Origin: Salvia splendens
Lineage: Eukaryota; Streptophyta; Magnoliopsida; Lamiales; Lamiaceae
Direction: 5' to 3'
Assembly: GCF_004379255.2 (NCBI RefSeq)
Contig: NC_056035.1
Location: forward strand, 34,797,208-34,861,207
Length of the DNA: 64,000 nucleotides
The notes beneath the pieces are model-generated. The model ran no database searches. It saw only the letters and a list, made by a program, of their open reading frames with translations, and was not told where the DNA came from. Of this stretch, positions 3,733 through 42,437 are shown piece after piece. The stretch's first letter is position 1, and every line of letters begins with the position of its first letter. Position numbers and translations under genes: made by a program.

Positions 3733-5074
3733 TTCTTTTAAAGGTTATTACTAGCTGCTCAAGTCATGGTATTCGTTGAACTTTTTTCATTCACCACATT
3801 AAGGATGTCTCTAGTTTTAGGTGGAGTAGTAGAGTGAGTTCAGTTTTGTTTTTGTCCAGAGTCGCCATCAATAGCTGAGCAGTGAGCACATACAATACAT
3901 ACTCTTATTTTTCTTACCGTTTGTGCAGTTACATTGTGTATATATGATCATTCAATGAAAAAATAAGGCTGTTGCCTTGGTGCATCAAAACAGGAACACA
4001 TCGTTCAAAATCCGCGGCGCGCTCTTCATTTCCTCAGCAATAGGGAGCCGCGGCCCAGCCAACCCCGTGCCGGGAGCTGCGGCTTCCCTATTGTGGACGC
4101 TCTTACTAACAAAATGTATTTTGCACCCACCAAAGTTTTGTGGATGCGTGCGCGACTGACAGTCTCTCCAAAATGTCAAAATTTCAAGACTTACAATGAA
4201 GTGCCTTAAAGATGCGATTGACACGGTATAATGATTAATGGCCTCTAATAAATGTCAAAAATTCAAGACTACAATAACAAGATTAGAAGAATTTGAGAGA
4301 GAATGAGAGTGAGAAACAGTGGGAGATCAACAGCGACCACAGCTCGGCACGTCATGAAATGGAAGAAGAGTTGTCGTCGCCCCTGTCGGAAGAGAAAGAG
4401 TAGAGACAAGAGAGGGAAACCACGAAATAAAAATGGGTAAGCCCTAATTGCTGTTTGAACTTAGTTGAATTTGACTTGGTCAAAATCGGATAATAGTTGA
4501 TACCCGATCAATTTACAGAAATCTCACTATTTTAACATGAACCCATTATCTGATTTTTTGGGTATCAGGTGCCCAATACCCGATAATTTTTGGGTCGGAT
4601 GGGGTGTACCCGAGACTAGATAACCGAACGGACAGTCCTAATTGGTGAGACAATGTATCATGATACATTGCAACGATTATTTGGATCATTCGACATATAC
4701 ATAGAATGTTTTATATTTCGATGGATGAGGGCAACTTGAGCCAAGATTTAGATCATCCCATGCATTAATTAAAGATGATGCAAATTATTTATTTTCCTAT
4801 TTCACAGATACGGATAATGAGAGATAAGTTAATACGGAGTAGTATTTTGCTAGGAAGTGATATTGAGAGACAAGTTAATGTTTTGCTAGGAAGTGATATT
4901 TAGTTACTTAGAATGTTAGTGGAACAAAAGCCAACTATGGAAATGTATGTGGAAATCAATATGCCTTCGAACTCAAAGTAAATTTGAGAGGCGGACGCTC
5001 AAGACTAGAGCACGATGTGATGTGGGATATTGAATAATTATGAAGACGAGGAGAATAGGATATGCATAGATATA
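3733..5074. other. 3' UTR and intergenic DNA with small hairpins
   Basis: 3733-3960 is probably the 3' UTR of the upstream gene. 4038-4093 is a GC-rich hairpin with arms CAATAGGGAGCCGCGGC and its near complement, looking like the core of a small TIR element. 4560-4640 holds repeated GGGTATC/ACCCGA motifs resembling the hAT MITEs further right, but I could not pair two ends. No open frame here looks coding. Confidence 0.5.
4651..4670. repeat. Perfect 20-bp palindrome
   Basis: CAATGTATCATGATACATTG is its own reverse complement with no spacer. It lies just right of a degenerate MITE-like tract and may be a transposon scar or a dyad binding site. Confidence 0.85.
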
Positions 5075-5314
5075 CTTCCTCTGTCTACAAAATAATGTCT
5101 CAATTTACTATTTTGGGACGTCTACAATTTAAATTCTCATCTGGTTCCATTTTAGGTAGTGAACTTCAGACTCCACATTCTACTTATAAAATCAAACTAA
5201 CACTATATAAAAATGGGACCTCATTCTATGAACTTTTTCATCACCTTCATTTACATTTTTTAAAACTCGTGCATGCATGTCAAAATGAGACTATAAAATC
5301 GTGGACGGAGGGAG
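5075..5314. mobile_element. Stowaway-like MITE
   Basis: The 240-bp element starts CTTCCTCTGTCTACA and ends GTGGACGGAGGGAG, the Stowaway type of terminal repeat. It is flanked by TA on both sides. The internal arms also pair (AATGTCTCA against TGAGACTATA). It is non-coding and would depend on a Tc1/mariner transposase. Confidence 0.85.
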
Positions 5315-5316
5315 TA

Positions 5317-6558
5317 ATTTGATATCATGCCTTAAGAGTTATGTGGTTTCATTAGAGAGGTGCCATAAAAGGTTGGGTTGTTGGGGGTGTGAGCAGATCG
5401 GGAATCATCGTTCAAGAATCATGATACGGGTAGCACTAGCCTACCCCCTATCGATGAAGAGTCTGATACTACGGAGACGGACATGGTGATGGGAAGAACA
5501 TGCGCAGATGAAGAAGAGGGAATAAAGGAGTTCGAGACAGTGGAGCTAGAGGAGCTTGCACCGATGGTGGTGACGACCAATTCACGCCCACGGTCGTCCG
5601 GAGAAATATGGAGATTGTGTCTCACATTAGAATTGGTTATTAGTTTATTATTATGATTTTTCTTTTTTGAATTGCTTCCTTTTAATTTATTTTGTTAAAA
5701 TATTATGTCGAGCATATTTATAAGCTCTTTTCTCAATTTCCTTTGTTGATTTTTTCTCGGAGAGCATAAGAGACTTGAATTGATGGGACCCGACTTGGGG
5801 TCCCATCATTGAGAATTGAGCACATGTTTTGTGAATGTGGAACTATTAAAGATAAACCTAGTGGCAAGCTAGGGTGAAGAAAGCTAGGGTTTACGAGAAA
5901 ATAATTATAGTTTTTATTCCTCGACTATTTTTTACTCTCTAATGAACTCTTTATATAGTGTTCGGACCCTGGTTGATTCAACTCTACGATTCGAGTAAGA
6001 ATCAAGAAGAAAATCTAAAAAGATTTAATAAATCTAAACTAAGTAATTATTCGAGAAGTAATGAGATATATGAAATTCTTGAACTTGGCATGCCTGGATG
6101 CGTTCCTCTTCGATCGTTCATTCCTTGTCTGCGATGGGGTCATCCGCTTTCTATCTCGTCCTCTTTTTGGTTCGTCTTCCTTGCATGGCGTGGGTTCTGC
6201 CTTGTGCGTCTGCATGGCTGTCTCGATTGGATCCCTATCATGAACTAATCAACCCTAGGGTTCTTAGACTATAAATGGACTTCTTGTTATTGCTTAATTA
6301 ACCCTAAAGAAATAATAGAATTTCTATAATGAAGTTTAAGTATTCAGGAATTGCGGGTAATACTTAATTTCTTACTACATTAGTATTCATTTTTAAATAT
6401 TAGTACGAAGTAATTTATTCTCGATTTTAATTGTGATTTTAATCTGCCTGCCAAACAAATAAACTCTATCAACTGAAAAGGCGATGAATTTACTTCATCT
6501 GTATGCAATATCAATATTTATGTTTTACAATTCATTCTCAGAGAAATTAACACTCACG
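5317..6558. other. Non-coding flank left of the MULE
   Basis: I found no convincing gene. A perfect 11-bp inverted repeat with a 6-base loop lies at 5781-5808 (TGATGGGACCC and its complement). The stretch ends at the 9-bp duplication of the MULE. Before that insertion, the right end of this stretch was continuous with sequence just upstream of the ESD4-like gene, so it probably contains that gene's original distal promoter. Confidence 0.5.
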
Positions 6559-6567
6559 TTTGTAATT

Positions 6568-6670
6568 GGGAAAATCGGGTTTATGGGGCACTTTACACTA
6601 AAGATTACGTAAATGTACCCATTTTGTTATCTATTCCAAAAATGGGAAAAACGCCAACCACATTGGCGTT
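6568..6670 (+). repeat. MULE left terminal inverted repeat
   Basis: It matches the reverse complement of 23731-23833 with only a few mismatches. It contains ACGTAAATGTACCCATTTTG and ends in the first micro-palindrome. It is preceded by the duplication TTTGTAATT. It probably contains transposase binding sites and the mudrA promoter. Confidence 0.93.
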
Positions 6671-6875
6671 TCTATTAGTAAAAATGCCAACCTCATTGGC
6701 GTTTATCTTCGCGTCGTATTGGAGGTGTATTTTCGCCAAATACAGCGGCGGGAAAAAACGCCAATGAAGTTGGCGTGTTTTAAGGTAAAACGCCAATGTA
6801 GTTGGCGTGTTTAATTAATAAAAACGCCACTGAGGTTGGCGTGTTATGCTTAAAAACGCCAATTTGAGCGGCGTG
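6651..6875. repeat. Left subterminal array of ACGCCAA-N6-TTGGCGT micro-palindromes
   Basis: About seven 20-bp units begin near 6651, 6689, 6734, 6760, 6792, 6825 and 6856. Each has the form ACGCCAA, six variable bases, TTGGCGT. The outer arms are conserved while the six central bases differ, and both arms of some units carry changes. Spacers are short and AT-rich. Subterminal repeats of this kind commonly bind transposase. Confidence 0.85.
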
Positions 6876-9708
6876 TTTCTGTTGAACCATATCCTTATCA
6901 GATCTCCCCCAACATCGCGACCCTAAACACTTTCCCTCCCCAAAACGCGAAAACCCTTCCCAAACGCATAAAAACCTTTCGCTCGGGTCGACCCGGTGGT
7001 GGATTTAAGCGTGGATATTTTGAATTTGGCTAATTCTTTCAACCATTAGTCCTTCTAATCGGTTAGTATATCAAATTTTAGACTCATTCTTCTAAACATT
7101 AGTCTTCCAATATTTGATTGATTGTTGTGATAATATATATTGTAGTGTAATTAATATAATAGTTTGACCAATTATTATGGGTACACTAATATTTTGATGG
7201 ATTATTATGATAGTATATATTTTAATGGAAATATTTTGACCAATTGTTATGCTATTATATGTTATAGTATATTTTATGGATTGTTATGATAATACATATT
7301 GTAGTGTATTTAATAGAATTATTTTGTCAATTTTTTGGCTGACTCTACATAATGATGAATGTAAAAATAATACATATTTATTTGTGTTTTACATTATTGC
7401 AGATAGTATGACGTGGTGTGTCAATTTATATTGGGGTGGAAAGATAATTCCCGGAGCAGTTATTTCGTATGATCCTCCTTTTGCTAAAGGATTCATTATG
7501 TTGGATGAAACAATTTCGTACGATGACCTTGTGGAAAAAATTTGTGAAAGGATGGGGATAAGCATATATGAAAACAATATTCAAATAATATGGAAACGTA
7601 CTATATGCTTTGGATCCGGAGTCACGTTTATAGGTGTTCAACTAGAAGAAGTATGCATGCAACTAATGTTTAGTGAGAGTATGGTTATTGGAGGTGTAAT
7701 TGATTATATGTTGAGTATTCGGCAATTACTCAACATCATAGTCATCATGTCATAAGTTATGATGCTGGTACGTCAACGAGAGCCCAAGAACCATATTTTG
7801 CTGCAACACAAGATTTTGATGTTGGTACGTCTACGAGAGCCGAAGAACCATATTTAGCTGCAACACAAGATTTTGAAGCTGGAGGCGTGCATTTAGGGGA
7901 TCGTGACAATTGTGATGTGGTGGAGGACATAATAGGTCCTGATAAAGCCGACTTTCTTGATCCACAATCACCTTATAATTCTGAAGATTCCGACACGGTT
8001 AGTACAGACTCAGATGGTGATCCGTCGGATGATGAACAATTTGTTGCTTCAAGACCATCCATTCCACTTGGAGAAACAGCAGTTGGAGAAACATCAGTTG
8101 GTGGAAGGGCAGTTGGAGGAAGAGTAGTTCCACAGTTCCCACAGCCTGGAATCAACTACTTTCGCACCTTACCAGGTCCATATGATAGTTTTGATCCCAA
8201 AAACTTTGAGCGTGATGATCCCAGTGTGCATTATTGGAGTGAAAAGGATCCTACCAATGTCGGTTTGCATACTAAATTTAGAACGAAGTTGGAATTGAAG
8301 GCAGCTGTGACTCATTGGCATTTGGAAAAAATCCGACAATATACAGTTGTTGAAAGTAAAGGAAAGAGATGGCATGCAGTTTGTAAGTGGCCACAGGGAA
8401 ATCCGAAAGATAAGTCCTTACCGCCATGTTTGTGGGAGTGCCGAGCAACACTGAGGAAGCATGATGAACACTGGCAAATTAGAGTGTTCAGCACTGCTCA
8501 TACTTGCATGGGGGATCGTAACTATAATGGCCACGCTAATCTTTCGTCGGGTATGATAGCGTTGAGTGTTCGCCATCAGATAGAAAACGATCCTTGCTAC
8601 AAGGTAAAAGCAATTGTGGCGGATATTGAAAATAGATTTCATGTCAAAGTTAGTTACAAGAAAGCATGGTATGCTCGGAGGACAGCGATTGAGCTTGTAT
8701 ACGGTGGATGGGAGTGGTCGTTCAAAGTTTTACCAGCTTATTTGAATGAAGTGCAAAGACAAAATCCTGGCACAATTGTGGAATGGATGCACGATGACAT
8801 ATTAAGCAATGGTATGAACAAGGTATTCAAGTACGTATTCTGGGCTTTTGGACCAGCTGTGGAGGCTTTTCAACTATGCAAACCAGTTTTAACGGTTGAT
8901 GGAACTCATCTACGTGGACGATGTCGAGGTAAAATTCTTATTGCCGTTGGATTTGATGCTAATAAGAAATGTTTGCCTGTTGCATATGCCATTGTTGATG
9001 AGGAAACCAAAGAAAGTTGGAATTGGTTTATGGAACGCATTAGACTTCATGTAGCAAAGCATGAAATATGTGTCATATCTGATAGGCATGTGGGAATCAT
9101 AGATGCAATGAATTCTCCCATATGGAAAGAAGAACCCAATGTGGGTCATCACAGATTTTGCTTGGTACATGTTAGAAAGAATGTTTTGCAGAATCACAAA
9201 GGTATCATGGTCAAAAGACTTGTTTGGAAAATTGGTATTGCTACCAAGAAGCGCAAGTTTAAGATCAGACGTCGTTTACTTCGAAACGTCAACAACGAGG
9301 CTTTGCAGTACCTTGATGCCGTGGAGTTAGAAAAATGGAATCTGGCGTATGACAAACACAAAAGATGGGGTGAGGTTTCCACTAATATGGTGGAATCTTA
9401 CAACAATGTGTTGAGAGGCGCAAGACAACTCCCAATTAAAGCTTGCATTGATATGATATTCTGGAGGACAATAGAATGGTTCAATGACCGGTCAATTGCA
9501 TCAACACAGTGTGCCACACCACTTACCCCGTGGGCGCATGAAAAGGTGTGCAAAAATGATGCAAAAGGTCAATTGCATAATGTGAGAGCACCCAACACAA
9601 TTGCAGGGCATTATGTGGTTCGAACAAAGCGTCGAATTGGTGGAAAGGGCGCTAATAAGTGGAAGGTAAAGTACTTGGACTCGCACTGCAAATGTCAAAA
9701 GTGGCAGA

Positions 9709-12700
9709 TGTAATGCCCCAAAACCCACCTTAGACGGAAAAGTGAATTTCCGGTGCTGTAAATCGCCGAAATTAGGGTTTTCGGCGAATAAATTGAAATA
9801 AATAACAAAATAAATTCTGATAATTCAATAAATCATGGGATACCGAAATATAAGTCATAATAAGTGTTAGAAAGGATACGTGAGCAAAGAATTGAGTTTT
9901 AATGAGTTTTAGTACGTTTTTTTTAGAAAAGTCACCGATTAGGGTTTTTCGGCGAATTTGCCGAGAAATATTAGGAATTTCCATTGGAAGATAATTTATA
10001 TGGAATCTAGAGATCAAAATAAGTATAATGTGAGTAAGATTGAGCAAGAAATTAGAATTAAATCGGTGCTCGTATAGAAAACGCGACAGGAGGGCAAAAT
10101 GGTCATATCATATAAAAAATACACCAAATCTTGTAAAAAGTAAAATGATTAATTATTTCAGATATGTAATTGGTATTACACGTCCATCAAGTGGAGGAAA
10201 TATGAAGAAAATTCTAGACTTGGTTAATTAATTAGAATGGTGCCACTTGTACACCTTATCTTCCATAAAATTTAATAATGAATTTTAGACTTATATAAAC
10301 TACAAATAATATTATTCATCTTCCTTCTACTTGAAAACTCTCGGCTCTCTCCCTCTTTGAAATACAAGAAAATTTTCTCTTCCATTCTTGATCATGTCTT
10401 GAAAAGAATTAAAGGAAAATCAAGTGTAAATGATAAAGTTAAGGTAAACCTTGTATTTTATGCTATTTCTACAACTTAAAGATGCAAGAAATATTGAGTT
10501 TAAATATTATATGATTTACGAAAATTTTGGGAATAACCATGCATGAAATTAATGTTTGTCATATTGATTTATATGTGATATTAGGATGATAGATATGCAT
10601 GTTTTAAGGGGGTTTTAATTATATCTTGAGATGACCGAAAATTATTTATTATTGAATCTTGAGCATTTGATGTTATATAGAGTAAATGATTGTTGATTTA
10701 TGGTTAATGGGATGATTAAACATAAATGGAAATAGAATTTGATACAAAAGTATGAGTCAGATTAACTCCTCTGTTTTTCAGCCCCATATTCTGAATTGTT
10801 TTGAATATTTAGGACTGTGAAAAGTTTGATTTATCAATTTTGAAAATAACTATAATGAGTCTAGAGGTTCTCTGAATTGTTTTGTAAATTTCGGAGTTCA
10901 CTTACTATAAGTATAAATTTTATAACAATACAGCTACAAACTGTCAAAATTCTGGTACACTGGCATATTTTGGTATGTGTTATCCGAAATATTCAGGGAA
11001 TTTAAGGTGGATGGAAACTTGATTGCATAATTTCTAAATTAACTATAAGGTGTTTAGTTATTCTCTGAATTTTGTGATTAATTAGAAAATACAAATACTA
11101 TTTATAAAAATTGTGTAGAAACTATTGCCATAAACTGCTCGATTTTGGTAGTCTGTGGTGAAAGGAGAATATCTCTCGACCCATTAGGAATCTTATTGCT
11201 TTGTAAACTAGACTTCCAAGGGTATTTGGAAATACTAAGTTACGCCTCTAAAGCCTTTTAAATGATTACATAACATTAACGAGAAAACAGTCTAATGTAG
11301 TGGATATATTAAAAGTAAATTGCTAGATCATGGAATTACTTTCATCTAGGATATTAGATGAGGATAAAAGGGGAGAGTTTAGCTTATAGTAATATTATTT
11401 CTCGATAAATTAATTTGTGTTATAATTCTATGAGGTAGCTACACCCAAATGTTAGCAAATGAAAGGAAAAAGGATCGGCGAAAGAAGAAATGTCGAATGG
11501 AAAGGTTTGGAAACAACGTCATCCAGGTAGCATGCTCAACACTTAAATGGCCTAATTCTCTTGCGTATTTTTCCGTGATTAGTACGTGACTTATTGTCTA
11601 AATAATTTATGATTAATTATGTGATAAAATATTCAAGAAGTGAAATATAAGAATATGATGGATTGTTGATTGATTTGATAATGAAATATGTGAAAAGAGT
11701 ATACGTTGAGGAGAAGGAAATAAATGTGATTAAATGTGATGATGTCTGATCTATCTATCTGTGATGAGGTCTGATTTGTCGGTTTGTGTTGATGTATTAT
11801 TATTTTAGTAGATTATGAGTAATTATGTGATAAAAGACTTATGAAGTAAAACATGAGAATATGGTGAATTATTGAATGATTTGATAATGAAGTATGAAAA
11901 TGGAAGAATATGATTGTGACTGTAAAGATGGTGAGATGTATACAAATAAGATTTACATTTGAAATATGTCTGATCGATCTGTGATGACGTCTGATCTGTC
12001 TGTATGGATTTGTTATGTTGGAAATCGTTGATGATAAAGTATACTTGTAAGTGCTTATGCCATGTGCTTGAGTGTGTTCTGTGGGTACAATTGGCATGCC
12101 ATAGGACAGCAGCGCTGCATTATCCGTGATCTCTCGTCTTCTGGATAACCGAAGCGAGGATCGTCTGTTATCTGATCTGTCTGATCTACACCCTATGGGT
12201 GGTCTGTTCCCGGGATTATCTGTCTGCATCCGAAATGAATGGTCTGATTATCTGTCTGCACCCTAATTGGGTGGTCAGTGCGGAGTCCTCTCGAGGACAA
12301 AATCCTCGTCTGTATCTGATTCTGATTCTGATTCTGATCTGGTCCGCGTACCCTAGTATGTCACTAAGCACATTAAGGGGCCATGTGTGAAATTATGTGA
12401 TAATGTCGATCGAAATATTCGTGATGATATATGTGACAATGTGTATGGCAACATATGAGTTATAATATGAGATTATGTGAAACATCTGTTAAAATTTGAT
12501 ATGATAATATCTTATATGTGAAAATGGATTCTGTTACATGGTTCTGTTGAGTTTTGTCATAAATATTGAAAATCTGACTTGCAGATGTAGTTTATGACAT
12601 ATGTGAAGTTTTGTATTATTATACCCCTCTGATGACATAGTTTGGAAATTTGAAGTCGTGGACGGAGATTTGACTACTGGTACGGGTATGTTGATACGTA

Positions 12701-13288
12701 TGATGACGTCTGTGATTTGTCTATGTTAATGTATGGATATCATTTGGAATATTAGATGCTTCATATGAATGCTGATGACTGTTGATAAATTCTGGGTTTG
12801 ATATTGCCTATTGTTGGGTTCTGGGTATGTGTTGGTCATAGAGGAGATGCTGCCCAATATATGTTAGAAATTAATAAGACAATAATAATATGATATAAGC
12901 GGTAATGGTTGATAAATAAAATAATAAGAATTTAAAAAATTTAAGTTGTATGATTATTGTTGTTAGAGTATTGTGGCTAAAGTGTTGAGTGTGCTACAGG
13001 TTAATTGGATCAGGGATTTCTTTGGATATTTCTTTCGTTTCTTTGCCAGCACTGCATCCACGGTGGGTCACTAATCACTGCTTGCGGCGTTTGTGTCCAT
13101 TTATGTTAGATGTGGCATGTATAGTATTTGAACATTTGCAATAGCTTCCGCTGTGTTTGTAAATAGTGTTGGAACTTTTGCTGATAGGTTAATGAATTAA
13201 GTTTGGTTTTTAATTGACCATAATTTATGGCACCGTAATTGTGACATTTCCTATTCGACCGTTCGCCGATCGGGTAGGGGGTGTTACA
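9709..13288 (+). repeat. LARD 5' LTR
   Basis: 3580 bp, TG...CA ends. By eye it is identical to the 3' LTR except for one T in a homopolymer (four T near 10918, five T near 16683). It contains a TCTGAT-rich stretch near 12310-12345 and no convincing gene. Short open frames inside it are exactly repeated in the other LTR. Confidence 0.95.
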
Positions 13289-13290
13289 AG

Positions 13291-13303
13291 TTGGTATCAG
13301 AGC
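13291..13303 (+). other. Primer binding site, initiator tRNA-Met type
   Basis: TTGGTATCAGAGC begins two bases after the 5' LTR. TGGTATCAGAGC complements the 3' end of plant initiator methionine tRNA, the usual primer for plant LTR elements. Confidence 0.95.
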
Positions 13304-15460
13304 CTAGGTTTAGGTGTTCCTAGGCTCTTGGTGGGTTTGAAGTGTGTTTAGTAACATGCCACATAGGGTGTCGAGTCGTATTCGATATCAGTGACCTGAT
13401 GCAGTGGCTACAGTATGCCAATATAGAAGTTTGTCAAACGATTATTTGATAAAGTATAAAGTCTAAAGTTTATCAAAGTACGGGACAAGAATTCCCGTGT
13501 GACCGAGAAATTTGGTTATATGGGACTGGCCACCCCACATAACTCGAATCTCGATAGTGTCATTGTCGGACAAAAAAACAAACTAAAAATAAATAAATAA
13601 ATATGATGTCAGCTAAAAGAGTGTAAAGTATAAAATGATTAGTAAGTAAATTATTTGCTAATTATGATTTGAGATCTGATTTTGATATATGTGAACATGA
13701 CAGTGATGTGGATAATAAATTAATATGGTCATATAAGTGTTGTGCCCTTGTTTATGCGTTAACATCGGGTATAGAAATTATTTATGATATATGATACATA
13801 GTGTCATTCTCTACAATATATGGTGTGATGGGAGGAAATAATATGATGTGACGATTGGTGTGATGGGAGGATTTGATTGACCCCATGCGGGTGCATTTTT
13901 TCTTTGTACGTATACCCGTGTTTATCGTTAAGCACACTTAGGCAAATAAGTGAAAATATGTGATAATGTGTATTAGCCTACGGATAACATATGTGTTCTG
14001 TGATCTGTAAATGTGTTGGTTATGGATAAGAATGGGATATATCCTTCGTATTTGATTTTAATAAATCGTATGGATATATGATGTTAAGTTTTATACGACG
14101 AAAGCGGGCTATCTGAATGTGAACATGTGAATTGATCGATACCTGATATGGATAAATATGTGTGCTCTAAATGAGCTATGCGTACGTGAAAATGAAGTGT
14201 ATGAATATGTGACGTGAATGGAAGTATGAAATCTATATGGATTATATGAGTACTCGGAATCGGGCAATATGAAATATGATGTGATGTGATAGAGATATAA
14301 GCTAAGTAACTGTACATGATATAAGATATGTGATACAAAATGTGGTAAGATTAGAATGTTAACTCCGTAAGAACTGTGTGCACTCGAAGACGAGCTAAGT
14401 GATTATGGAAATTTAAATGAAGATTTAGATATGAAATGGAAAATTAAAATGGGTGCTCTAAGTGAGCTATAATATATATGAAATGATATGTCTAAAAATG
14501 TGAGTTGTAAATGAAATAAATATATGAGTTTGAAATTGAACTATATGAGGAAAAATGGTACTATGCTTGAAATTATGGAATCCAGGGAATCATATGCGTG
14601 TTTAAAAGAATGTGAAATGTATTGATGACCAATATATGATGGAATTCGAAAATGAATGTGATATTTGACATTATTGCGAATTGTGTTGATTATTTGGGAG
14701 ATATTACAATGTTGCTGTGGATGATTAATTTATTTGGATGCTTTGCCTTTGAATTTGAATATTGTTGGTTTTTGGGCATGCTCCATTTTTAGGGGAAAGG
14801 TTGCCCAATTTTTGTTAGAAACTAATGGAATAAATTAACTACGGAATTATAATAACAAGAGATGATGACTGTAATAGAAACAATATCCAATATGTGATGA
14901 ATCAAGGTGGAAGTATGTAGTATGATAAAAGGGTATGTAAATTGATATGATATAAGAGGACAACATGAATAAGTTAAAAATGAACTAGAATGGTGTAGGG
15001 GATAAATGAGTAATAAAAATGGTAGCATTGTCACGTGAATGCGAATGGGGAATCTGAATGTGAAAATGTTGATTATGTGATTTTATATGCTATTTGATGA
15101 ATGATTATTGAAATATGAGCTATGGATTTCACATTGGAACTTATGCTGAAATCTGTCAGATAATAAAATGTAAAGAAGTATGCGATATAATTTGATAAGT
15201 ATGCTTATGTATATTTTGAATCTGTGACATGATGGAACTAATAATCTTAATATGATATATTAGGGTGAAATATGAACTTATGTGACATTATATGTGAAAG
15301 GTGGATTATGTGATTTGAAGTATGATTTTGTGGCTTGATGCGGAAAATGAGGATACGCTACAAATAGGAAATGACGTAATGCCATGAAATGACATAAGAG
15401 AAACCATGGCGCTTCAGGAGTAAGAAAATCTGATGGAATTTCGAGGACGAAATTCTATTT

Positions 15461-15472
15461 AGGGGGGATGAG
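15461..15472 (+). other. Polypurine tract
   Basis: AGGGGGGATGAG directly precedes the 3' LTR start and is the expected primer for plus-strand synthesis. Confidence 0.85.
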
Positions 15473-15473
15473 T

Positions 15474-18400
15474 TGTAATGCCCCAAAACCCACCTTAGAC
15501 GGAAAAGTGAATTTCCGGTGCTGTAAATCGCCGAAATTAGGGTTTTCGGCGAATAAATTGAAATAAATAACAAAATAAATTCTGATAATTCAATAAATCA
15601 TGGGATACCGAAATATAAGTCATAATAAGTGTTAGAAAGGATACGTGAGCAAAGAATTGAGTTTTAATGAGTTTTAGTACGTTTTTTTTAGAAAAGTCAC
15701 CGATTAGGGTTTTTCGGCGAATTTGCCGAGAAATATTAGGAATTTCCATTGGAAGATAATTTATATGGAATCTAGAGATCAAAATAAGTATAATGTGAGT
15801 AAGATTGAGCAAGAAATTAGAATTAAATCGGTGCTCGTATAGAAAACGCGACAGGAGGGCAAAATGGTCATATCATATAAAAAATACACCAAATCTTGTA
15901 AAAAGTAAAATGATTAATTATTTCAGATATGTAATTGGTATTACACGTCCATCAAGTGGAGGAAATATGAAGAAAATTCTAGACTTGGTTAATTAATTAG
16001 AATGGTGCCACTTGTACACCTTATCTTCCATAAAATTTAATAATGAATTTTAGACTTATATAAACTACAAATAATATTATTCATCTTCCTTCTACTTGAA
16101 AACTCTCGGCTCTCTCCCTCTTTGAAATACAAGAAAATTTTCTCTTCCATTCTTGATCATGTCTTGAAAAGAATTAAAGGAAAATCAAGTGTAAATGATA
16201 AAGTTAAGGTAAACCTTGTATTTTATGCTATTTCTACAACTTAAAGATGCAAGAAATATTGAGTTTAAATATTATATGATTTACGAAAATTTTGGGAATA
16301 ACCATGCATGAAATTAATGTTTGTCATATTGATTTATATGTGATATTAGGATGATAGATATGCATGTTTTAAGGGGGTTTTAATTATATCTTGAGATGAC
16401 CGAAAATTATTTATTATTGAATCTTGAGCATTTGATGTTATATAGAGTAAATGATTGTTGATTTATGGTTAATGGGATGATTAAACATAAATGGAAATAG
16501 AATTTGATACAAAAGTATGAGTCAGATTAACTCCTCTGTTTTTCAGCCCCATATTCTGAATTGTTTTGAATATTTAGGACTGTGAAAAGTTTGATTTATC
16601 AATTTTGAAAATAACTATAATGAGTCTAGAGGTTCTCTGAATTGTTTTGTAAATTTCGGAGTTCACTTACTATAAGTATAAATTTTTATAACAATACAGC
16701 TACAAACTGTCAAAATTCTGGTACACTGGCATATTTTGGTATGTGTTATCCGAAATATTCAGGGAATTTAAGGTGGATGGAAACTTGATTGCATAATTTC
16801 TAAATTAACTATAAGGTGTTTAGTTATTCTCTGAATTTTGTGATTAATTAGAAAATACAAATACTATTTATAAAAATTGTGTAGAAACTATTGCCATAAA
16901 CTGCTCGATTTTGGTAGTCTGTGGTGAAAGGAGAATATCTCTCGACCCATTAGGAATCTTATTGCTTTGTAAACTAGACTTCCAAGGGTATTTGGAAATA
17001 CTAAGTTACGCCTCTAAAGCCTTTTAAATGATTACATAACATTAACGAGAAAACAGTCTAATGTAGTGGATATATTAAAAGTAAATTGCTAGATCATGGA
17101 ATTACTTTCATCTAGGATATTAGATGAGGATAAAAGGGGAGAGTTTAGCTTATAGTAATATTATTTCTCGATAAATTAATTTGTGTTATAATTCTATGAG
17201 GTAGCTACACCCAAATGTTAGCAAATGAAAGGAAAAAGGATCGGCGAAAGAAGAAATGTCGAATGGAAAGGTTTGGAAACAACGTCATCCAGGTAGCATG
17301 CTCAACACTTAAATGGCCTAATTCTCTTGCGTATTTTTCCGTGATTAGTACGTGACTTATTGTCTAAATAATTTATGATTAATTATGTGATAAAATATTC
17401 AAGAAGTGAAATATAAGAATATGATGGATTGTTGATTGATTTGATAATGAAATATGTGAAAAGAGTATACGTTGAGGAGAAGGAAATAAATGTGATTAAA
17501 TGTGATGATGTCTGATCTATCTATCTGTGATGAGGTCTGATTTGTCGGTTTGTGTTGATGTATTATTATTTTAGTAGATTATGAGTAATTATGTGATAAA
17601 AGACTTATGAAGTAAAACATGAGAATATGGTGAATTATTGAATGATTTGATAATGAAGTATGAAAATGGAAGAATATGATTGTGACTGTAAAGATGGTGA
17701 GATGTATACAAATAAGATTTACATTTGAAATATGTCTGATCGATCTGTGATGACGTCTGATCTGTCTGTATGGATTTGTTATGTTGGAAATCGTTGATGA
17801 TAAAGTATACTTGTAAGTGCTTATGCCATGTGCTTGAGTGTGTTCTGTGGGTACAATTGGCATGCCATAGGACAGCAGCGCTGCATTATCCGTGATCTCT
17901 CGTCTTCTGGATAACCGAAGCGAGGATCGTCTGTTATCTGATCTGTCTGATCTACACCCTATGGGTGGTCTGTTCCCGGGATTATCTGTCTGCATCCGAA
18001 ATGAATGGTCTGATTATCTGTCTGCACCCTAATTGGGTGGTCAGTGCGGAGTCCTCTCGAGGACAAAATCCTCGTCTGTATCTGATTCTGATTCTGATTC
18101 TGATCTGGTCCGCGTACCCTAGTATGTCACTAAGCACATTAAGGGGCCATGTGTGAAATTATGTGATAATGTCGATCGAAATATTCGTGATGATATATGT
18201 GACAATGTGTATGGCAACATATGAGTTATAATATGAGATTATGTGAAACATCTGTTAAAATTTGATATGATAATATCTTATATGTGAAAATGGATTCTGT
18301 TACATGGTTCTGTTGAGTTTTGTCATAAATATTGAAAATCTGACTTGCAGATGTAGTTTATGACATATGTGAAGTTTTGTATTATTATACCCCTCTGATG

Positions 18401-19054
18401 ACATAGTTTGGAAATTTGAAGTCGTGGACGGAGATTTGACTACTGGTACGGGTATGTTGATACGTATGATGACGTCTGTGATTTGTCTATGTTAATGTAT
18501 GGATATCATTTGGAATATTAGATGCTTCATATGAATGCTGATGACTGTTGATAAATTCTGGGTTTGATATTGCCTATTGTTGGGTTCTGGGTATGTGTTG
18601 GTCATAGAGGAGATGCTGCCCAATATATGTTAGAAATTAATAAGACAATAATAATATGATATAAGCGGTAATGGTTGATAAATAAAATAATAAGAATTTA
18701 AAAAATTTAAGTTGTATGATTATTGTTGTTAGAGTATTGTGGCTAAAGTGTTGAGTGTGCTACAGGTTAATTGGATCAGGGATTTCTTTGGATATTTCTT
18801 TCGTTTCTTTGCCAGCACTGCATCCACGGTGGGTCACTAATCACTGCTTGCGGCGTTTGTGTCCATTTATGTTAGATGTGGCATGTATAGTATTTGAACA
18901 TTTGCAATAGCTTCCGCTGTGTTTGTAAATAGTGTTGGAACTTTTGCTGATAGGTTAATGAATTAAGTTTGGTTTTTAATTGACCATAATTTATGGCACC
19001 GTAATTGTGACATTTCCTATTCGACCGTTCGCCGATCGGGTAGGGGGTGTTACA
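15474..19054 (+). repeat. LARD 3' LTR
   Basis: 3581 bp, ending GTGTTACA at 19054 and followed by the GCAGA duplication and then the rest of the transposase SWIM domain. Near identity to the 5' LTR implies very recent insertion or gene conversion. Confidence 0.95.
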
Positions 19055-19968
19055 GCAGATGTGGAGACTTCCATGTTCACATGCAGCGGCAGTTGCGCGT
19101 TTTAGAAACGACAACATGCTGTCGCTTGTTGATCCCGTATACCGCACAAGTGTTTGGGTACACCAATATTCTACGGTGTTCAATCCACCCAGACACCAAG
19201 ATTATTGGGCCGTGCCTGAATGGACTTTGCAATGTTCACGAGCTCAGTTAATGCCTAAAAGTCGCGGTCGATACCGTACTACTAGGATTCCTAATCAGAT
19301 GGATGTCCGTGAAGCTGACCAGCCACGAGCCCGACGCCGATGTAAACATTGCCGTCAACCAGGTCACGACAGGCGCAACTGCCCGAATGCTCATTCAAGG
19401 ATGGATACTCAGTTGGTAGATGATGCCGCTGACGATTTTTTGCATCCACCTCCACCAAGGATGGATACTCAGTTGATAGATGATGCCGCTGACGATTCTT
19501 TGCCTCCACCTCCACCAAGATATGCAGTTCGAGGTCGTCATTCTGTCAGTCACACTGATGATGTCGATCACGATTTTATGCCTCCACCTCCACCAAGATC
19601 TGCAGTTCGAGGTCGTCACTCTGTCAGCCACACTGGTGGTACAGGCGAACACATCGGTCTCAGTGATGTCCCACATTCTCCACCTCGGTCTTCTGTGCGA
19701 GACGAATATTTTGGGGTTGATTTAGAGAATGTCGTTGTGCGAGAGACTCCTCCGTCTAGACTCTCAACCGCCAGAATCGGGAAGGGGATCCGTAGCTTTT
19801 TTACGCGGAAAAGGCGAGACAATTGAACGTATGCATTGTGTAATATTGGATTTCTGTATTTAGCAAGATTTGGACTAATGTATAGGGTAATATTTGTATG
19901 TACTTATATATTGAATAATGATGAAATGATTAAAAACTCTTAACTGTGGGAGCGTTTTTTTATAGGAC

Positions 19969-20444
19969 ACGCCGATGTGAGTGGCGTGTTTAAAGAGACG
20001 CCTACTTAATTGGCGTCTTTTCACTTTAAAACGCCAACGTGAATGGCGTGTTATTACTGAAACACGCCAACGGGACTGGCGTGTTTGTTCAGAATGTCCG
20101 CTTTCGGCGTAGAAAAAACGAGCAACGAAAAAACTAACTTAAAAACGCCAATGGCGTTGGCGTTTTTAAATAACACGCCAACGGGAATGGCGTCTTATTA
20201 AAAACGCCAACGGGAATGGCGTGTTTGTTCAGAATGTCCGCATTCGTCGTAGACAAAACGGGCAAAATATAAACTAACTTAAAAACGCCAATAGCGTTGG
20301 CGTTTTTAAATAACACGCCAACGGGAATGGCGTCTTATTAAAAACGCCAACGGGAATGGCGTGTTTGTTCAGAATGTCCGCATTCGTTGTAGAAAAAACG
20401 GGCAAAATATAAACTAACTTAAAAACGCCAATAGCATTGGCGTT
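19969..20444. repeat. Central micro-palindrome array with a 140-bp tandem repeat
   Basis: About eleven units of the same 20-bp ACGCCAA-N6-TTGGCGT palindrome lie between the two convergent gene ends. Part of the array is a tandem repeat of exactly 140 bp, marked by GTGTTTGTTCAGAATGTCCG at 20081, 20221 and 20361. Each tandem unit holds three palindromes. The array starts about 140 bp after the mudrA stop and ends about 190 bp before the PMD stop. A further degenerate unit lies near 20470. Confidence 0.9.
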
Positions 20445-20633
20445 TTTCACAAAGACTTACATTCACAAAAACGCCAATATCTCTTTATTTGCCTGTTTTC
20501 ATTTTCATTTCTACTAGGAAATAATAATTCAGACATCCAAATACTTAATCATAAAGACTTAAAATCAATGAGTTCAAATCAAATGAAAAAACATCAATAT
20601 CAAATTACAGTAATATCAAGAGTTCAAATTAGT

Positions 20634-22761
20634 TCAATCGTCACGACGTTTCCGCATAAACAGACGCCGTATCCCCTTCCCAATAGTAGATGTAGATCTA
20701 GGGATCCTTGAGGGAGGAGTATCTTGAACAACAGCGTTCTCAAGATCCTCCTGCACAGACGACCGCGGTGGAGAAGCGGGGACATCACTGAGGCCAATAT
20801 CTTCTCCGGTACCACCGGTATGGCTAATAGAATGACGGCCTCGAAGTGCAGAGCTCGGTGGAGGTGGGTCCTCAAAATCGTCATCGGAGTCGTGTACGAA
20901 CTGAGATGACGACTCTCCGCGGACGGTTTTCTGCTTGGTTCGTCGTTTTGCCTTTTGCCTTATGGGTACGTCCACGTCCATTGCAGAGCGCTGCGAAGGA
21001 GGGTAGTCCATCAGCTGAGGCTCCCCGGATATCTGCAGTCCTTCTTCAACCATCCTCGAAATGGTTTCCATATCCGGACAGAAATGTCCTGTCGCAGCTC
21101 GGCCACTTAGATAGTGACGTATTTTGTGAAGCGTCTCCACCTACAATTTTTCAAAGTTAAGTACATATCATAATATGAATTTGAATAAGTAATCAGGGTT
21201 TAGTTAAGTATAAATAATGTACCGTAAAGTTATGAGAAGATGCGGTTTCGTGGAATCCCTCTTCAGCATGCACGCCGGGTTTGGTTAAATACACCACAGT
21301 GATCTGGCGAAACCAATTCATATATTCTTCCGTTGCAACAGGCTCAGTACTGTCCTCCAGATCAGTCCATATCGTAAAGTGTCTGTTGTCCCACTCCTGT
21401 ATATAATTGGCGTGCCATTGAACCCAATTCCGACCAGCTTTTCCACGGCGATCCTGTTTCAAAAAATCAGAACCGTGGAACCGGGGGAGATCCGGGATAT
21501 ACGGTTGGACAATCCCGAATTGGCGCAACACTCGGTGTGGCAGGTGTGGCTCAGCCAGATTCCAACAAATAAGCGTTGTGATCGACATCCATATAGGACG
21601 ACCGGCATCACAACTTTCCGGCAACTCCCGGTGGAGATAAGGCCTCCAAATAAACTACATGTGATACAAATTTTTCAAAATAATTTCCATAAAAACAAAA
21701 AACAAAAAACCAAAAACATTTTATAAATATATGAAGTACCTGATTAGGATGCATCATGGAGAACTGATCTCGGAAATTTTCAACACAATGTCCGGGTGCT
21801 TTTACATATGACGCCGGGCCATTCCATCTAAAAAATTTAAATTATGAGCGAAGAACACGAAAATTGATGAACATTAAGTTTAAAAACGCAATTAATGAAC
21901 AACTTACGCGCTTGCACATGGTAGATAGTCTGTATGCACGGGATCTAGCATCCTCGGTCTAATATTTGGGATTCTCTCCCAAGCCCAAAGTTGTAATAGA
22001 GTTAAGGCTCCCCCTACATCCGTCCTCTGACCAACGACCGCTTCACACAAATTGTGGTACAAGCAAGCAAGCGTCGCCCCACCCCAGCTATATGTAGAAC
22101 ACCGTTCTATATCCATGAAAAAGTGTAGGTAGAAGAACGGAATTTTATTTCCGGTGGCGTTGGGGATCATCAGACCACCAAGTAATAGCAGACAATAGAT
22201 ACGAGCCCGCTGAGCATATATGTAGTGTTCGTGGTCATTAGACAGCTCAATCCTCAATTGGCGCGATAAGCTCGTCTGCTTAAAAGCCATTTCCTTCAAC
22301 TCGGATGCTTCCGGTATGAATCCTAGAAAATCCATACACCTGTCCGTCCAATATCCCGCGTCCGTCGGGGGGATGTAAGTTGTCAGAGCCTCTCCATCAA
22401 TTTTCAGGCCCCATAAGACCTCCACGTCTTCCAGTGTCACAGTCGCTTCACCGACTGGAAAGTGAAACGTGTGAGTCTCTGGCCTCCAACGTTCAATCAG
22501 AGCTGTGATAAGATGGTGGTCAATTTCTTTTGGTTTACCACACCTTAACATACCCCCAAACCCCATCTGGTCCACTATTGTCAAGACATGTTGCTGGATG
22601 GGAACATCCCAAATTTTTCCTTCAAATCGTCGGCAGCGTACATCTTCGGATGGAACTCCTGCCCATATGTTCTTAGAGACGTGTTGTCTCTGAAAATATA
22701 ATACAGATGGATCCGCAGGACCACATGCAAGCCGACGACGAGAGGTTGAAGATGATGCCAT
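20634..22761 (-). CDS. Plant mobile domain (PMD) protein encoded by the MULE
   Basis: Four exons join in phase on the minus strand: 22761-21908, 21827-21740, 21654-21223 and 21140-20634, giving 626 residues with GT-AG introns throughout. The body, roughly residues 40-450, matches the plant mobile domain of MAIN/MAIL1 and PP7-long-form proteins: HHLITALIERWRPETHTFHF, VTLEDVEVLWGLKIDGEAL, LLLLGGLMIPNATGNKIPFF and RRKGKAG-type basic segments later. Exon 4 has a basic patch (RQKAKRRTKQK) and ends in a tail of about 72 residues (RGRHSISHTGGTGEDIGLSD ... RRLFMRKRRDD) shared with the MULE transposase. The ATG gives MASSSTSRRRLACG. Host MAIN/MAIL1 act in gene expression and TE silencing; the role of this TE-borne copy is unknown. 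It has no lesion, unlike its partner gene. Confidence 0.92.
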
Positions 22762-23456
22762 AATTTACCTACATAATTCAAATTCAACAATAACCAACCA
22801 TAACATTTAATCCAATTTCATAAACCAAATTCAACAATAACCAACCATAAACCATTTCAATAATTAGATACAATTTAATCCAATATCACAAAATTGAACA
22901 CCAACATCAAATAAGCAAGTTACACAACATTGCACATTCAAAATCATAAACCAATTCACCTACACAAAATTAACAATTTCAATTAACAATTCGCCCAACC
23001 TACCAATTTCAATTTTGCCTAACCTAAACAAATTTAACAATCTAAACTAATCAACCAAAACCCACATAAATCAAAACAATTTGCCCAATTTTTTAGCTAT
23101 AAAAACCCTAGGGTTTAGGCTTATAATCAAATTTATACACAAATTAACTTAAACCCAACACAATCCAACATAATAATCAACAATAATATCATTCAACCAA
23201 TCCAAAATGCATAATATTTCTACTCAATTCACAACCCATTACAAACCCTAGCTATCCACCAATTACTATAATTATGTAAAAGGTAAGCATACTAACCGAA
23301 TAAAATAGATGAATTTGGGGGAGAATAGCACCGATTGATGAATGTAGGCCGAAATCACGGAGAGAAGGCGCGCAGCTGGAGAAATCGCGAAGGCTGTGTG
23401 TTGTGAGGTTTTCGCGATTTGGGGGAGGAACGCCTGGTATATCAGTCTGATTAAAC
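22762..23456 (-). promoter_or_regulatory. PMD gene 5' leader and probable leader intron
   Basis: Upstream of the PMD start lies about 500 bp of AT-rich, CAA-rich sequence with a plausible 3' splice site (TTATGTAG, near 22770) and a possible 5' splice site near 23298. This suggests a 5' UTR intron, as also seems to be present before mudrA. Transcription would then start near or inside the right terminal region. The splice assignments are tentative. Confidence 0.45.
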
Positions 23457-23750
23457 ACGCCACTCAGAATGGCGTTTTTCATGATTAAGTAAATACGCCA
23501 CTCCGGTTGGCGTCTTTTACAAAACGTCAATATGTTCGGCGTTTCAACAAAGAAAACACGCCATTTACAAATGCGTTTTTTTATTTATACACGCCAACCA
23601 AGTTGGCGTGTTTAATCGTAATTACAATCCGAGAGCATACACCCAAAATACGGCACAAGTATAAAACGCCATCATCGTTGGCGTATTTACCTTAAAACAC
23701 GCCAATGACGTTGGCGTATTTACTAATAAAAACGCCAATGTGGTTGGCGT
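23457..23750. repeat. Right subterminal micro-palindrome array
   Basis: About eight 20-bp units begin near 23457, 23494, 23523, 23555, 23591, 23666, 23699 and 23731, with the same ACGCC(A)-N-GGCGT design as on the left. The innermost ones are more degenerate. The outermost unit is part of the terminal inverted repeat. Confidence 0.85.
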
Positions 23751-23833
23751 TTTTCCCATTTGTGGAATAGATAACAAAATGGGTACATTTACGTAATATT
23801 TAGTGTAAACTCCCCCATAAACCCGATTTTCCC
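23731..23833 (-). repeat. MULE right terminal inverted repeat
   Basis: Reverse complement of 6568-6670 with a few substitutions. It is followed by the duplication TTTGTAATT at 23834-23842. It faces the ESD4-like gene, whose start codon is about 275 bp away. Confidence 0.93.
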
Positions 23834-23842
23834 TTTGTAATT

Positions 23843-24108
23843 CCAAATCCCTTTTCGCAATCGCAGCTATTTCCATAAGCCTAATCCTTCGTCGATTGCT
23901 CTCAAATTCTTGAAATTAGTTGCTCGTCAACGACCTCTCCCTCAAAAAACCCTAATTCGCCTCAAATCCGCGACAATTTTCCGATCAATCTCATCTCGTG
24001 CATAACCTTTTTTCCAAATTCAAAAGCCCCACGCCGTTTTTACCGCAAAATACCGAACGTTTCGATGATTCAACGGTTGGGGTTTTCACCGGAGTAGTAG
24101 CTTGGATA
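23843..24108 (+). promoter_or_regulatory. ESD4-like proximal promoter and 5' UTR, truncated by the MULE
   Basis: Only about 265 bp separate the MULE target duplication from the start codon. The stretch is CT-rich in places (GACCTCTCCCTC) and has no clear TATA box. Transcription must start here or inside the MULE end. An in-frame GTG at 23998 was not chosen because family proteins start at the MGA methionine. Confidence 0.55.
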
Positions 24109-27100
24109 ATGGGGGCTCTAACCAGCAACAGGAAGCGAGGAGACGATTATTTCAAAAACCTTTTGTTTGACCAATCGCACGGCCACATCTCAAAAAAACC
24201 GAAGCTTTCAGCTTCTATGAGTCAAACTACGGTGGATACTAATCGTGCGGCGGCGGCGAACTCGGTTGCTGCCAGAATTGCGCAGTATCCGGATAGGAAA
24301 TTGGGGTTTACGAGGAAAGTTCACGCCCCAGTTAACCATAGATTTGGAAGTTCTTTTAAGAATACTGTATCTGCTGCTGGTTCTAGGGAATCCCCATCTG
24401 ATAAAATGGGGAAATTTAGTTTTCTCTCGCGGCTTTTAAACTTTGAAAAACTTAAGGATTCGGCATTGAGATCTACCAGGTATATCGCTCCAGTGAAACA
24501 GAAAGAGAAGGAGGTGATTGAGCTTGATAGCAGCGAAGACCAGGATTTTGATGTTGTCTCTAATGATTCTAGCATAGAAGAGGTGGAGATTGTGGATTCC
24601 CAGGAGAGAAGGTGGAAGGGGGGAGAATGGGTTGTGGAGAAAGAAGTGCGGTCTTTAGATTCTTCTGTGGTCACTGATGTTAGCAATGCGGCAAAGGTTG
24701 ATGATTTGAAGAATTATGGATTGTCGTTGTTGGACCCAATGACTGATGATTCGGAGGTGCCACTGTATAAGAGATGGTATGATAGTATAAAGAAAAGCGA
24801 TGCTAAGCTTGCCCACATAAGTTTTAATATAGATTTACAAGAAAAGAGGGCTCAAGGGTTGCAGTTATTGCGGCCTCCAAAGAAAGAAGAGCCTATTAAG
24901 GTGGTCTTTGGTTTTACTGTTCTATCCTTTGTGCAATTGAATTTTTAGTCATATGTTTTAATTAGGTTGTACTTTTTTGTAGGACGTGACTGAGGAGTGC
25001 TTCGTGCCTCTTACTCATGATGAAAAGGATGAGGTTTCTCTTGCCTTGTCTAATTCCTACAGGTTGTTATTCCTCTTCGATTGAACTGGATGTCTTTCAT
25101 GTGCTTTTTACTAAATCTTATCTTTGTTCGGTATTTGCAGGAGAAAAGTTTTGGCCACTCATGCGAATTCAGGCATTGATATTTCTGGAGAAATACTACA
25201 GTGTTTGAGGCCCGGAGCATGGCTTAATGATGAAGTGATTTTCTGTATTTTTTTGCATGAATTTCATAAGATTAGGTGGAGATACGGAATCTTTCATGTG
25301 GAGGCTGAGGCTGTGGTTAAATATATTCTTGTATTGCAGGTCATTAATGTGTATCTTGGGCTGTTGAAAGAAAGGGAAAATAGGGCGCCAGAGAAGTTTC
25401 TCAAGTGCCATTTCTTTAATACCTTCTTCTACAAGAAGGTTTGCTCATCGCTCATGGATCCATTCTTTAGCACCATGTCGCATTTATTAAATTGTTAGCC
25501 TGACATACCTGATACACGTTATAGTTTCTCTTCATACGAGAAGATTACACTTACTGCCCCTAACATTTAGAAGTGCGCTTCTATTTCTAATTGTCTAAAG
25601 CGTTGTATTGTCACTTGGTGCTTTCTCAGCTTAGTAACGGGCGGGGTGGCTACAATTTTCAATCAGTTCGAAGATGGACTACACAGAGAAAGCTCGGATA
25701 TAGTCTTTTAGAGTGTGACAAAGTATGTTTCTGGGAATTTTCATTTCATTAAAAGCTTTTATTTGTCAAAGTCTCTACTTATCCCTTTGAATTAATTCAT
25801 TTGTGGTGCTGTTACTTAATTTTCTTAGATTTTCGTGCCTATCCACAAAGGAAACCATTGGTGTCTGGCAGTTATCAACAAAAAGGATGAAAAGTTTCAG
25901 TACCTTGATTCGCTCGGAGGTCGTGATTATCAAGTTCTGAATGCACTGGTACGCTTACTTCCTTGTTAAGCTGGCTGAACTTAGTTTCTGTATTTTAGTT
26001 TATAGCTGATTTTCGTTTATCTACAAGTTCAGCTGTCTGTAGTTCGTGTTAGATCTATTATCCATGCATATGTGGGATATTGTTTGCTCTCTTGTACTAT
26101 ATAATTAGCAAGCTTTGTTCTATCATTGTCTCTATATAGCTTTGATGTTTGTAAGTACTCCCTCCGTCCCACCCAAGATGACCACATTCTTGAGTGGCAT
26201 GGAGTTTTAGGTGGAATAATTGTTTGTGATAAAGTAGTTTGAAAAAGTAATTGAATATTTTAATGAGGGGAGATGATAGAGAGATTTAATTCCAAATATA
26301 GAAAGTGGACATCTTGAATGGGACAAACTAAAAAGGAAAGGTGGTCATCTTGAATGGGACGAAGGGGGTAGCAGTTATGGGAAAATAAGGAAAGAAAGAA
26401 GTTGGAAGGAGAGAGAAAGGGGAAATGAATTAATTGATGCATTAAAGGTGGAAAATAAATGGGAGTTGTAAAATTGAACTCTGGTTGTTGCACCTATTGA
26501 ATATGTATCATGGAAGCTATTGTGCATATCTGTATTTTCTCATTATTTATGTTTAACTTTTTAGCAAAATCGTTTCTATATAATTTTATTCACTGTATAT
26601 ATAATTAAGAAGTATTGCAATCTTAATTTCATTCATCACACTCCCACATTCCTTTACTTAGGTTAGGACTCATCTAATCTATTTTTCTTTTTTCTGTGGG
26701 GGAGAGGAGGAATTGTATGTGTAAGATCACAATATTGTAATTTATAAAGTAGCCCTTTTTAGAGTGGAGCAGTATCCATCCAATTTGCTGGAAAAATAAT
26801 CTATTTATGTTACATCATCATTTTGGAGCTATAGTCTTCGGTTGCTCTCTGAGGATTGCATCCCATGTTACGTGGCATTTAAGCTACATAATGCATTGAT
26901 TTGTTCATAATTTTTTCTGGTTTATCTAGTTTTTTTTTACTATGGCATGACCCTTTTTGAAGTTATAAATGTAGGCCAAGTATTTTGTGGATGAGGTGAA
27001 GGACAAGTCTGGAAAGGATATTGATCTTAACTCATGGGAGAAAGAATTCGTCACAGAACTTCCAGAGCAGTTAAATGGGTAACTTGTGAAACTTCCGAGT

Positions 27101-42350: not shown

Positions 42351-42437
42351 ATCTCCAGCAAATGTGTTAAGTTTTGAAAGTTTTAAGTTCAGTTAAGGTC
42401 CGAATCCTTCAATGACAAGTATATCTCGTCTTGCGAT

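Follow-up and report, generated by a model that had tools for sequence, protein, structure and literature searches.

The 64,000-nucleotide window of Salvia splendens DNA analysed here (assembly GCF_004379255.2, contig NC_056035.1, positions 34,797,208 to 34,861,207) carries at positions 6568-23833 a Mutator-like element (MULE), in which terminal inverted repeats (TIRs) and a target-site duplication enclose two convergent genes, a mudrA-type transposase gene entering from the left and a gene for a plant mobile domain (PMD) protein entering from the right (Table 1). An earlier note, made from the letters of this window alone, had described matching terminal repeats, an exact 9-bp duplication and this pair of converging genes, and each of these descriptions was borne out. 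The mudrA-type part contains the MULE domain PF10551 (E 1.3e-17 in the profile scan of the window; 3.4e-17 in the intact reference copy, L023), and the open PMD frame, built from four predicted exons, encodes a protein that matches PF10536 with E 1.1e-79 (268.7 bits against a gathering cut-off of 34.9); a start of exon 4 two codons shorter is also possible. The SWIM zinc finger PF04434 in the transposase of L023 lies barely over its cut-off (19.9 bits against 19.6). PF10551, the SWIM finger, the 135-bp TIRs and the target-site duplications of 9 bp in the window and 8-10 bp in other copies together place the element among the MULEs.

The copy in the window is unable to make transposase, because its mudrA-type gene has a frame break (seen as overlapping frames) and, separately, houses a nested long terminal repeat (LTR) retrotransposon. 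A live element at this locus was considered and is ruled out by these same two lesions. The retrotransposon is 9,346 bp long, its LTRs are 99.94% identical over 3,584 columns, and it is bordered by the 5-bp duplication GCAGA. Twelve of the 13 other long copies of the family have an uninterrupted insertion site with the two halves of mudrA adjoining, and the remaining one (L011) is deleted there.

Table 1. Features of the MULE in the Salvia splendens window (positions within the window; ORF, open reading frame).
Feature	Position	Strand	Remarks
Left target-site duplication TTTGTAATT	6559-6567		identical to 23834-23842
Left TIR	6568-6702	+	135 bp, 94% to 23699-23833
Left dyad array	6651-6842		exact ACGCCA-N7-TGGCGT at 6651, 6758, 6790, 6824
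mudrA-type gene, part before insertion	7408-9708	+	ORFs, PF10551, start codon; frame broken 7704-7755
Nested LTR retrotransposon	9709-19054		LTRs 9709-13288 and 15474-19054; GCAGA at 9704-9708 and 19055-19059
mudrA-type gene, part after insertion	19055-19826	+	ORF 19044-19826; remaining SWIM region, zinc knuckle (by eye), C-terminal tail
Transposase tail matching PMD tail	19599-19823	+	coordinates transferred from copy L023; also DNA match
Central dyad array	20031-20443		nine exact dyads between gene 3' ends, mostly within 140-bp tandem repeats 20060-20479
PMD gene	20634-22761	-	predicted exons 22761-21908, 21827-21740, 21654-21223, 21140-20634; 626 aa
PMD C-terminal tail common to transposase	20637-20852	-	DNA and protein match
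Right dyad array	23457-23750		six exact dyads: 23457, 23495, 23591, 23666, 23699, 23732
Right TIR	23699-23833	-	135 bp, 94%
Right target-site duplication TTTGTAATT	23834-23842		exact copy of left

The family of the window element, F1, was followed through the 806-Mb Salvia splendens assembly. The left 501 bp of the element were found at 40 places, the window included, with 490-501 bases matching at 99-100% (40 of 1,318 candidates were scored). Twenty of the 39 other places were read, and one of them, L009, was set aside because it repeats the window locus together with its flank, which left 19 copies: 13 long ones (7.5-8.05 kb) and six with internal deletions (3.1-5.8 kb). All 19 have a distinct target-site duplication of 8-10 bp, recognised by eye in L018, where the end of the right TIR is mutated. 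The convergent two-gene layout is no coincidence, being present in 13 of the 19, with a broken transposase in two and a broken PMD in two; under the predicted splice model of the window, transposase and PMD frames are each open in 11 of the 13 long copies and both are open in nine. Intact copies hold a 1,022-aa transposase frame and a convergent 626-aa PMD frame. The earlier note expected an autonomous family to show several full-length copies with this layout and their own duplications, and F1, with both frames open in nine long copies at distinct insertion sites, agrees with this expectation and is putatively autonomous. Since the mean pairwise divergence of the 13 long copies is 0.24% (0.08-0.40) and 144 of the 163 variable sites among the 19 copies are singletons in a star-like pattern, F1 is a recent burst in Salvia splendens. 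Internal deletions were noted in L011, L013, L015, L016, L017, L021 and L024; two of the short copies, L013 and L024, lack a complete transposase but have their PMD frame open, and are possible donors of PMD protein in trans.

The non-coding DNA of these elements is marked by a 19-bp dyad of the form ACGC-xy-N7-y'x'-GCGT with fixed spacing, which lies in both end regions and in the intergenic region of the family whose inner half-site bases (xy) are CA. Exact CGCCA-N7-TGGCG dyads occur 20 times in the intact copy L023 (five towards the left end, six towards the right end and nine between the 3' ends of the genes), against a mean of 0.055 and a maximum of 1 in 200 shuffles; when gaps of 3-11 were allowed, all had a gap of 7, and the sequence within the gap is variable. 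Half-sites of L023 are non-coding in 47 of 57 cases and coding in 10, and no complete dyad stands in coding DNA. Neighbouring dyads of L023 less than 200 bp apart are spaced by 29-34 bp in 10 of 17 instances. The window copy carries 19 exact ACGCCA-N7-TGGCGT dyads and none was present in its coding DNA, in the retrotransposon or in the rest of the window; among other gaps from 0 to 30, its end and intergenic regions gave a single case, with N1. All 19 F1 copies, including those that lack a gene, retain 10-23 dyads.

The same geometry is found beyond F1. In a motif-free search, the commonest dyad in all nine PMD-element loci was in this register, 6-20 times per locus against a shuffle maximum of 1-2; the nine comprise six mutually related CA loci, two GA loci and one AT locus, and thus represent three lineages and not nine independent cases. 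At L030, a rearranged locus, seven of ten dyads are of the GA type, one is CA and two are mixed, and at L031 six of eight are GA and two mixed; L036, upstream of a P0013-type gene, has six AT dyads, the AT family having been read at one end only. The frame ACGC-N11-GCGT is kept across the lineages, and the inner bases (CA, GA, AT) differ. Genome-wide, we counted 5,973 CA, 484 GA and 8,022 AT dyads, while the same patterns read backwards, which served as controls, gave 14, 4 and 7. On C1, GA dyads lie no more than 5 kb from each of the three PMD matches whose profile range is 12-346 (the L030 class). Separately, a stretch of about 1.2 kb at C1:964918-966086 is densely set with CA dyads, has no nearby PMD among the matches listed, and is perhaps a short non-autonomous relative. 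The AT half-site TCATGCGTC of L036 and the Arabidopsis MORC1 DOWN motif CATGCAGTTT both contain CATGC, a likeness too short to weigh and worth keeping only as a lead towards the PMD protein as reader of the dyads.

Is the PMD gene a regular part of these elements? Two further families have the same convergent pair: F2 (L032 and L034; protein P0001, PMD 76% identical) and F4 (L031; protein P0008, PMD 42% identical), so that a PMD antisense to a transposase is seen in the window and in L031, L032 and L034. Between F1 and F2, compared in one pair of copies (L023 and L034), the PMD genes have a synonymous divergence (dS) of 0.81 and a ratio of nonsynonymous to synonymous divergence (dN/dS) of 0.17 (bootstrap 0.13-0.22, 592 codons). 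Purifying selection maintains the PMD frame between the two families, and therefore the PMD belongs to the element as its second gene. The transposases of the same pair, that of F2 being broken, differ by a dS of 0.16 with a dN/dS of 0.42 over 1,001 codons. As the dS values of the two genes differ five-fold, the two halves of the element have different histories, and exchange between families would account for this, as judged from a single copy pair with a broken F2 transposase.

Among the matches listed (120 of 716), the proteins closest to the F1 PMD are those of other Salvia PMD elements, at up to 76% identity; long proteins of the host type reach 33-38%, and a near-identical host gene was not found there. 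A PMD tree of 44 proteins (41 from the 120 listed matches, two fused gene models and the F1 protein) unites eight Salvia splendens element PMDs, namely F1 and seven others, with two of S. hispanica in one clade with support 1.00. In the midpoint-rooted display this clade shares a half of the tree (1.00) with proteins of Coffea, Zingiber, Sesamum and Helianthus and a fused Centaurea model, and its grouping with Sesamum itself has support 0.00. For most non-Salvia proteins in the tree a place on a transposon is putative, and the tree is compatible with an ancient transfer in either direction and with one or more such transfers. The Salvia element PMDs stand apart from the long Lamiales proteins taken as host genes, and for this reason a fresh capture is not supported. 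One fused protein, P0189 of Heliosperma, combines a PMD with a MULE domain; it is placed in the opposite half of the tree and speaks against a single transposon group. Altogether, four gene models in Zingiber, Heliosperma and Centaurea combine PMD and MULE domains on the same strand and in either order, which shows that not all such pairs are convergent. PMD and MULEs are thus widely associated, and the association may also be old. Two Glycine soja proteins, P0077 and P0106, belong to PMD clusters of 69 and 160 members and are perhaps PMDs of high-copy legume transposons.

The two proteins of the element also share their C-terminal end. In L023, the C-terminal 75 residues of the transposase align with the C-terminal 72 of the PMD protein over 77 columns, of which 71% are identical (E 1e-27 with the low-complexity filter on), and both tails end in IGKGIR-x-x-FMRKRRD-[ND]; in the window DNA the tails match as inverted copies, 79% identical over 141 nt. 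F2 likewise carries both tails, and the F4 transposase ends six residues past its zinc knuckle. Residues 880-1022 of the transposase had a PMD protein as their sole match among 846 candidates of admitted length. The idea that the tail is a general MULE feature was tried and found unsupported, given the point at which the F4 transposase stops and the single PMD match. Of the PMD tails compared, those of L033 (synonymous distance 0.28) and F2 (0.40) lie closest to the F1 transposase tail, and the one of its own element is farther off (1.05). These distances suggest that the transposase of an ancestor resembling F2 or L033 gained a copy of a PMD tail, and that F1 later acquired a different PMD half. 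The PMD tail has a dN/dS of 0.12 between F1 and F2, and of about 0.1 when F1 is compared with F2 or L033.

The fixed gap and the variable sequence within it suggest that the dyads are sites for a dimeric protein encoded by the element, most likely the PMD protein, which the transposase may join at the dyads via the common basic tail, which was probably copied to it from the PMD. With the arrays at the ends and between the genes occupied, the DNA of the family would stay open and active despite host silencing, much as VANDAL elements do through VANC, and the changed inner bases of the half-site would confine the system of each family to itself. To the proposal that dyad binding by the PMD protein, possibly together with the transposase, works against the silencing of its own family we assign a probability of roughly 45%, on the strength of sequence comparisons. 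The position of the central array, away from the element ends, favours the PMD protein as the reader of the dyads, as do the DNA motif that accompanies host PMD action and the precedent of VANC, a MULE-borne protein that reads motif arrays. Sub-threshold matches to DUF1985, a domain of VANC, occur in five of 11 scanned PMD proteins (E 1e-4 to 3e-3).

Several observations weigh against this proposal. The DUF1985 matches stay under the Pfam cut-off (22.5 bits against 35.1) and six of the 11 PMD proteins have none. Dyads also occur inside the TIRs, where a transposase would be expected to act; the GA loci L030 and L031 have dyads near their ends only, and the CA and mixed dyads at L030 and the mixed ones at L031 stand beside the GA type within one element. 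The pairing of half-site and protein, with three lineages only, is unable to tell the PMD protein from the transposase. Within the burst, no selection was seen on either gene: mudrA changes are 41 nonsynonymous and one stop to 12 synonymous (42:12, neutral expectation 2.71), and PMD changes are 26 nonsynonymous and one stop to 11 synonymous (27:11, neutral expectation 2.60). Finally, the dN/dS of the PMD tail rises to 0.38 between the closer pair F2 and L033, and that of the transposase tail is 0.66 with a wide interval of 0.32-1.69.

One could argue that the dyads are binding sites of the transposase, with the PMD protein as a mobility helper comparable to mudrB and the common tail letting the two proteins meet on the element ends. 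In maize MuDR, mudrA and mudrB are convergent, and mudrB is said to be required for insertion. MULE transposases act on TIRs, dyads are terminal in every family read (at the one end read in the AT family), and even the gene-lacking F1 copies hold their arrays, all of which agrees with such a function. However, CA families have a third array between the 3' ends of the genes, with nine of the 20 dyads in L023, where recognition of ends is not needed, and a DNA motif has been reported alongside the action of host PMD proteins (PMC7156037, PMC9899485). We hold this explanation to be a serious, if somewhat doubtful, competitor. An origin of the dyads as mere structure, that is, as hairpins or foldbacks spread by slippage that may feed or avoid small-RNA silencing, appears unlikely to us. 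It would suit those dyads that sit inside 140-bp tandem repeats, so that part of their number is due to duplication, but neutral hairpins would vary in loop length, and all 20 CGCCA/TGGCG dyads of L023 keep a gap of 7 around variable gap sequence; moreover, the three lineages change the inner half-site bases and yet preserve ACGC and the spacing.

The possibility that the PMD gene is a passenger from a one-off capture of a host gene, which the earlier note had named as an outcome that would undo its interpretation together with the absence of any other two-gene element, is in our opinion extremely improbable. MULEs do acquire fragments of host genes, as PMC6446971 describes, but the PMD frame is open in most long copies, its dN/dS between families is low, F4 repeats the convergent pairing with a far less similar PMD, and the tree separates element PMDs from the long Lamiales host-type genes. 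One-off capture was rejected on these grounds and because the matches listed include no near-identical host gene, and the long F1 copies, F2 and F4 all have both genes. The interpretation offered in the earlier note, a PMD acting as a second mobility protein or an anti-silencing factor, is upheld in part: the recurring layout and the selection on the PMD between families support a regular second gene, whose action in moving or de-silencing the element is putative, and its novelty does not stand, the layout having been tabulated and an anti-silencing role proposed before.

Returning to a PMD protein that reads the dyads, the proposal can be extended. Transposon PMD proteins might be sequence-specific dimeric factors that read a 19-bp dyad in which xy is a private code of each family, with the transposase joined to the system by copying the PMD tail; they would then mirror, on the side of the transposon, the PMD-motif modules of the host and add to VANC another anti-silencing code. 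We put this forward only tentatively, with less assurance than the proposal that it extends. A dyad of fixed geometry with family-specific half-sites, present in thousands of copies, together with near-identical intact elements, makes the role of transposon PMD proteins testable. If the reading is true, the same logic would bear on how the host proteins MAIN and MAIL1 find their targets. The shared tail and the halves with different histories also illustrate a way in which exchange may remodel such systems.

Some features of the locus and its surroundings should be recorded. The nested retrotransposon is very young, and its 3.58-kb LTRs enclose about 2.2 kb with no listed ORF of at least 120 aa; it is probably non-autonomous and dependent on the proteins of another element. 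The duplicate L009 (C4:34784731-34794730), 18.8 kb upstream, is 99.92% identical to window positions 6318-16315 and comprises the left half of the MULE, its flank and the retrotransposon. Its right half is absent from the 10 kb read there and from window positions 1-6567, the intervening 2.5 kb being unread, and L009 is either a partial local duplication or an assembly artefact. The MULE is inserted just upstream of a gene-like stretch (23956-25498), which we take to resemble a SUMO protease gene of the ULP1/ESD4 type; no Pfam family matched in the two scanned fragments of this stretch. Farther right, fragments resembling a Copia polyprotein (37977-41881, by eye) are flanked by direct repeats at 36240-37418 and 42438-43613, 95.6% identical, which are perhaps the LTRs of a Copia-like element (36240-43613).

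The two-gene layout itself is already known: in the part of Dupeyron 2019 (PMC6446971) available to us, antisense PMD genes are tabulated for most plant MULEs of the MUDR clade, likewise with a SWIM transposase, TIRs and 9-10-bp duplications. Dyad arrays or a shared tail are unmentioned in that part, and the Salvia family differs in its recent burst and in having open frames for both genes in most long copies. A rice MULE provided the original description of the PMD; Ikeda 2017 (PMC5418596) describes PMD-MULE fusions and proposes an anti-silencing role; the grass and Amborella fusions of that study also place PMDs on MULEs, whereas the Salvia PMD is a separate convergent gene in a eudicot. According to Nicolau 2020, eudicots hold mainly genic PMD-C. 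We found no prior report of the dyads or the shared tail in the open-licence PMC literature, which is not proof of absence; both look new and are candidate novelties relative to that literature. The title of a 2025 work speaks of 'PMD protein-DNA motif modules'.

Three known systems bear the closest comparison. The maize MuDR element resembles the Salvia element in its convergent gene pair, its TIRs and its 9-bp duplications (the layout as generally known; PMC6446971, in part), and the second gene in Salvia is a PMD, whose correspondence to mudrB is one of arrangement. Arabidopsis MAIN and MAIL1 are PMD proteins that are likewise linked to a short DNA motif, DOWN, enriched in the promoters of the genes that depend on them, with no binding shown in the passages available (PMC7156037, PMC9899485); unlike the Salvia PMD they are host genes and act with PP7L, and those passages do not describe the motif as a dyad array. 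VANDAL21 with its VANC protein comes nearest in manner of working. There, according to Hosaka 2017 (PMC5735166), a protein borne by a MULE reads motif arrays and removes methylation, and the arrays lie in non-coding DNA and tandem repeats with a motif that varies by family. In contrast to the Salvia protein, VANC contains DUF1985 and DUF287 and no PMD, and its motif YAGTATTAY forms same-orientation arrays instead of spaced dyads (PMC5735166); VANDALs also often have degenerate TIRs or none, as far as the passages of PMC6446971 tell, compared with 135 bp at 94% in Salvia. The Salvia PMD does not qualify as a VANC-type second protein, its DUF1985 score falling short as given above and DUF287 not being listed. 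Judged by analogy, the family-specific motif arrays in non-coding DNA that the Salvia elements have in common with VANDAL and VANC would be a likeness in working, not in descent.

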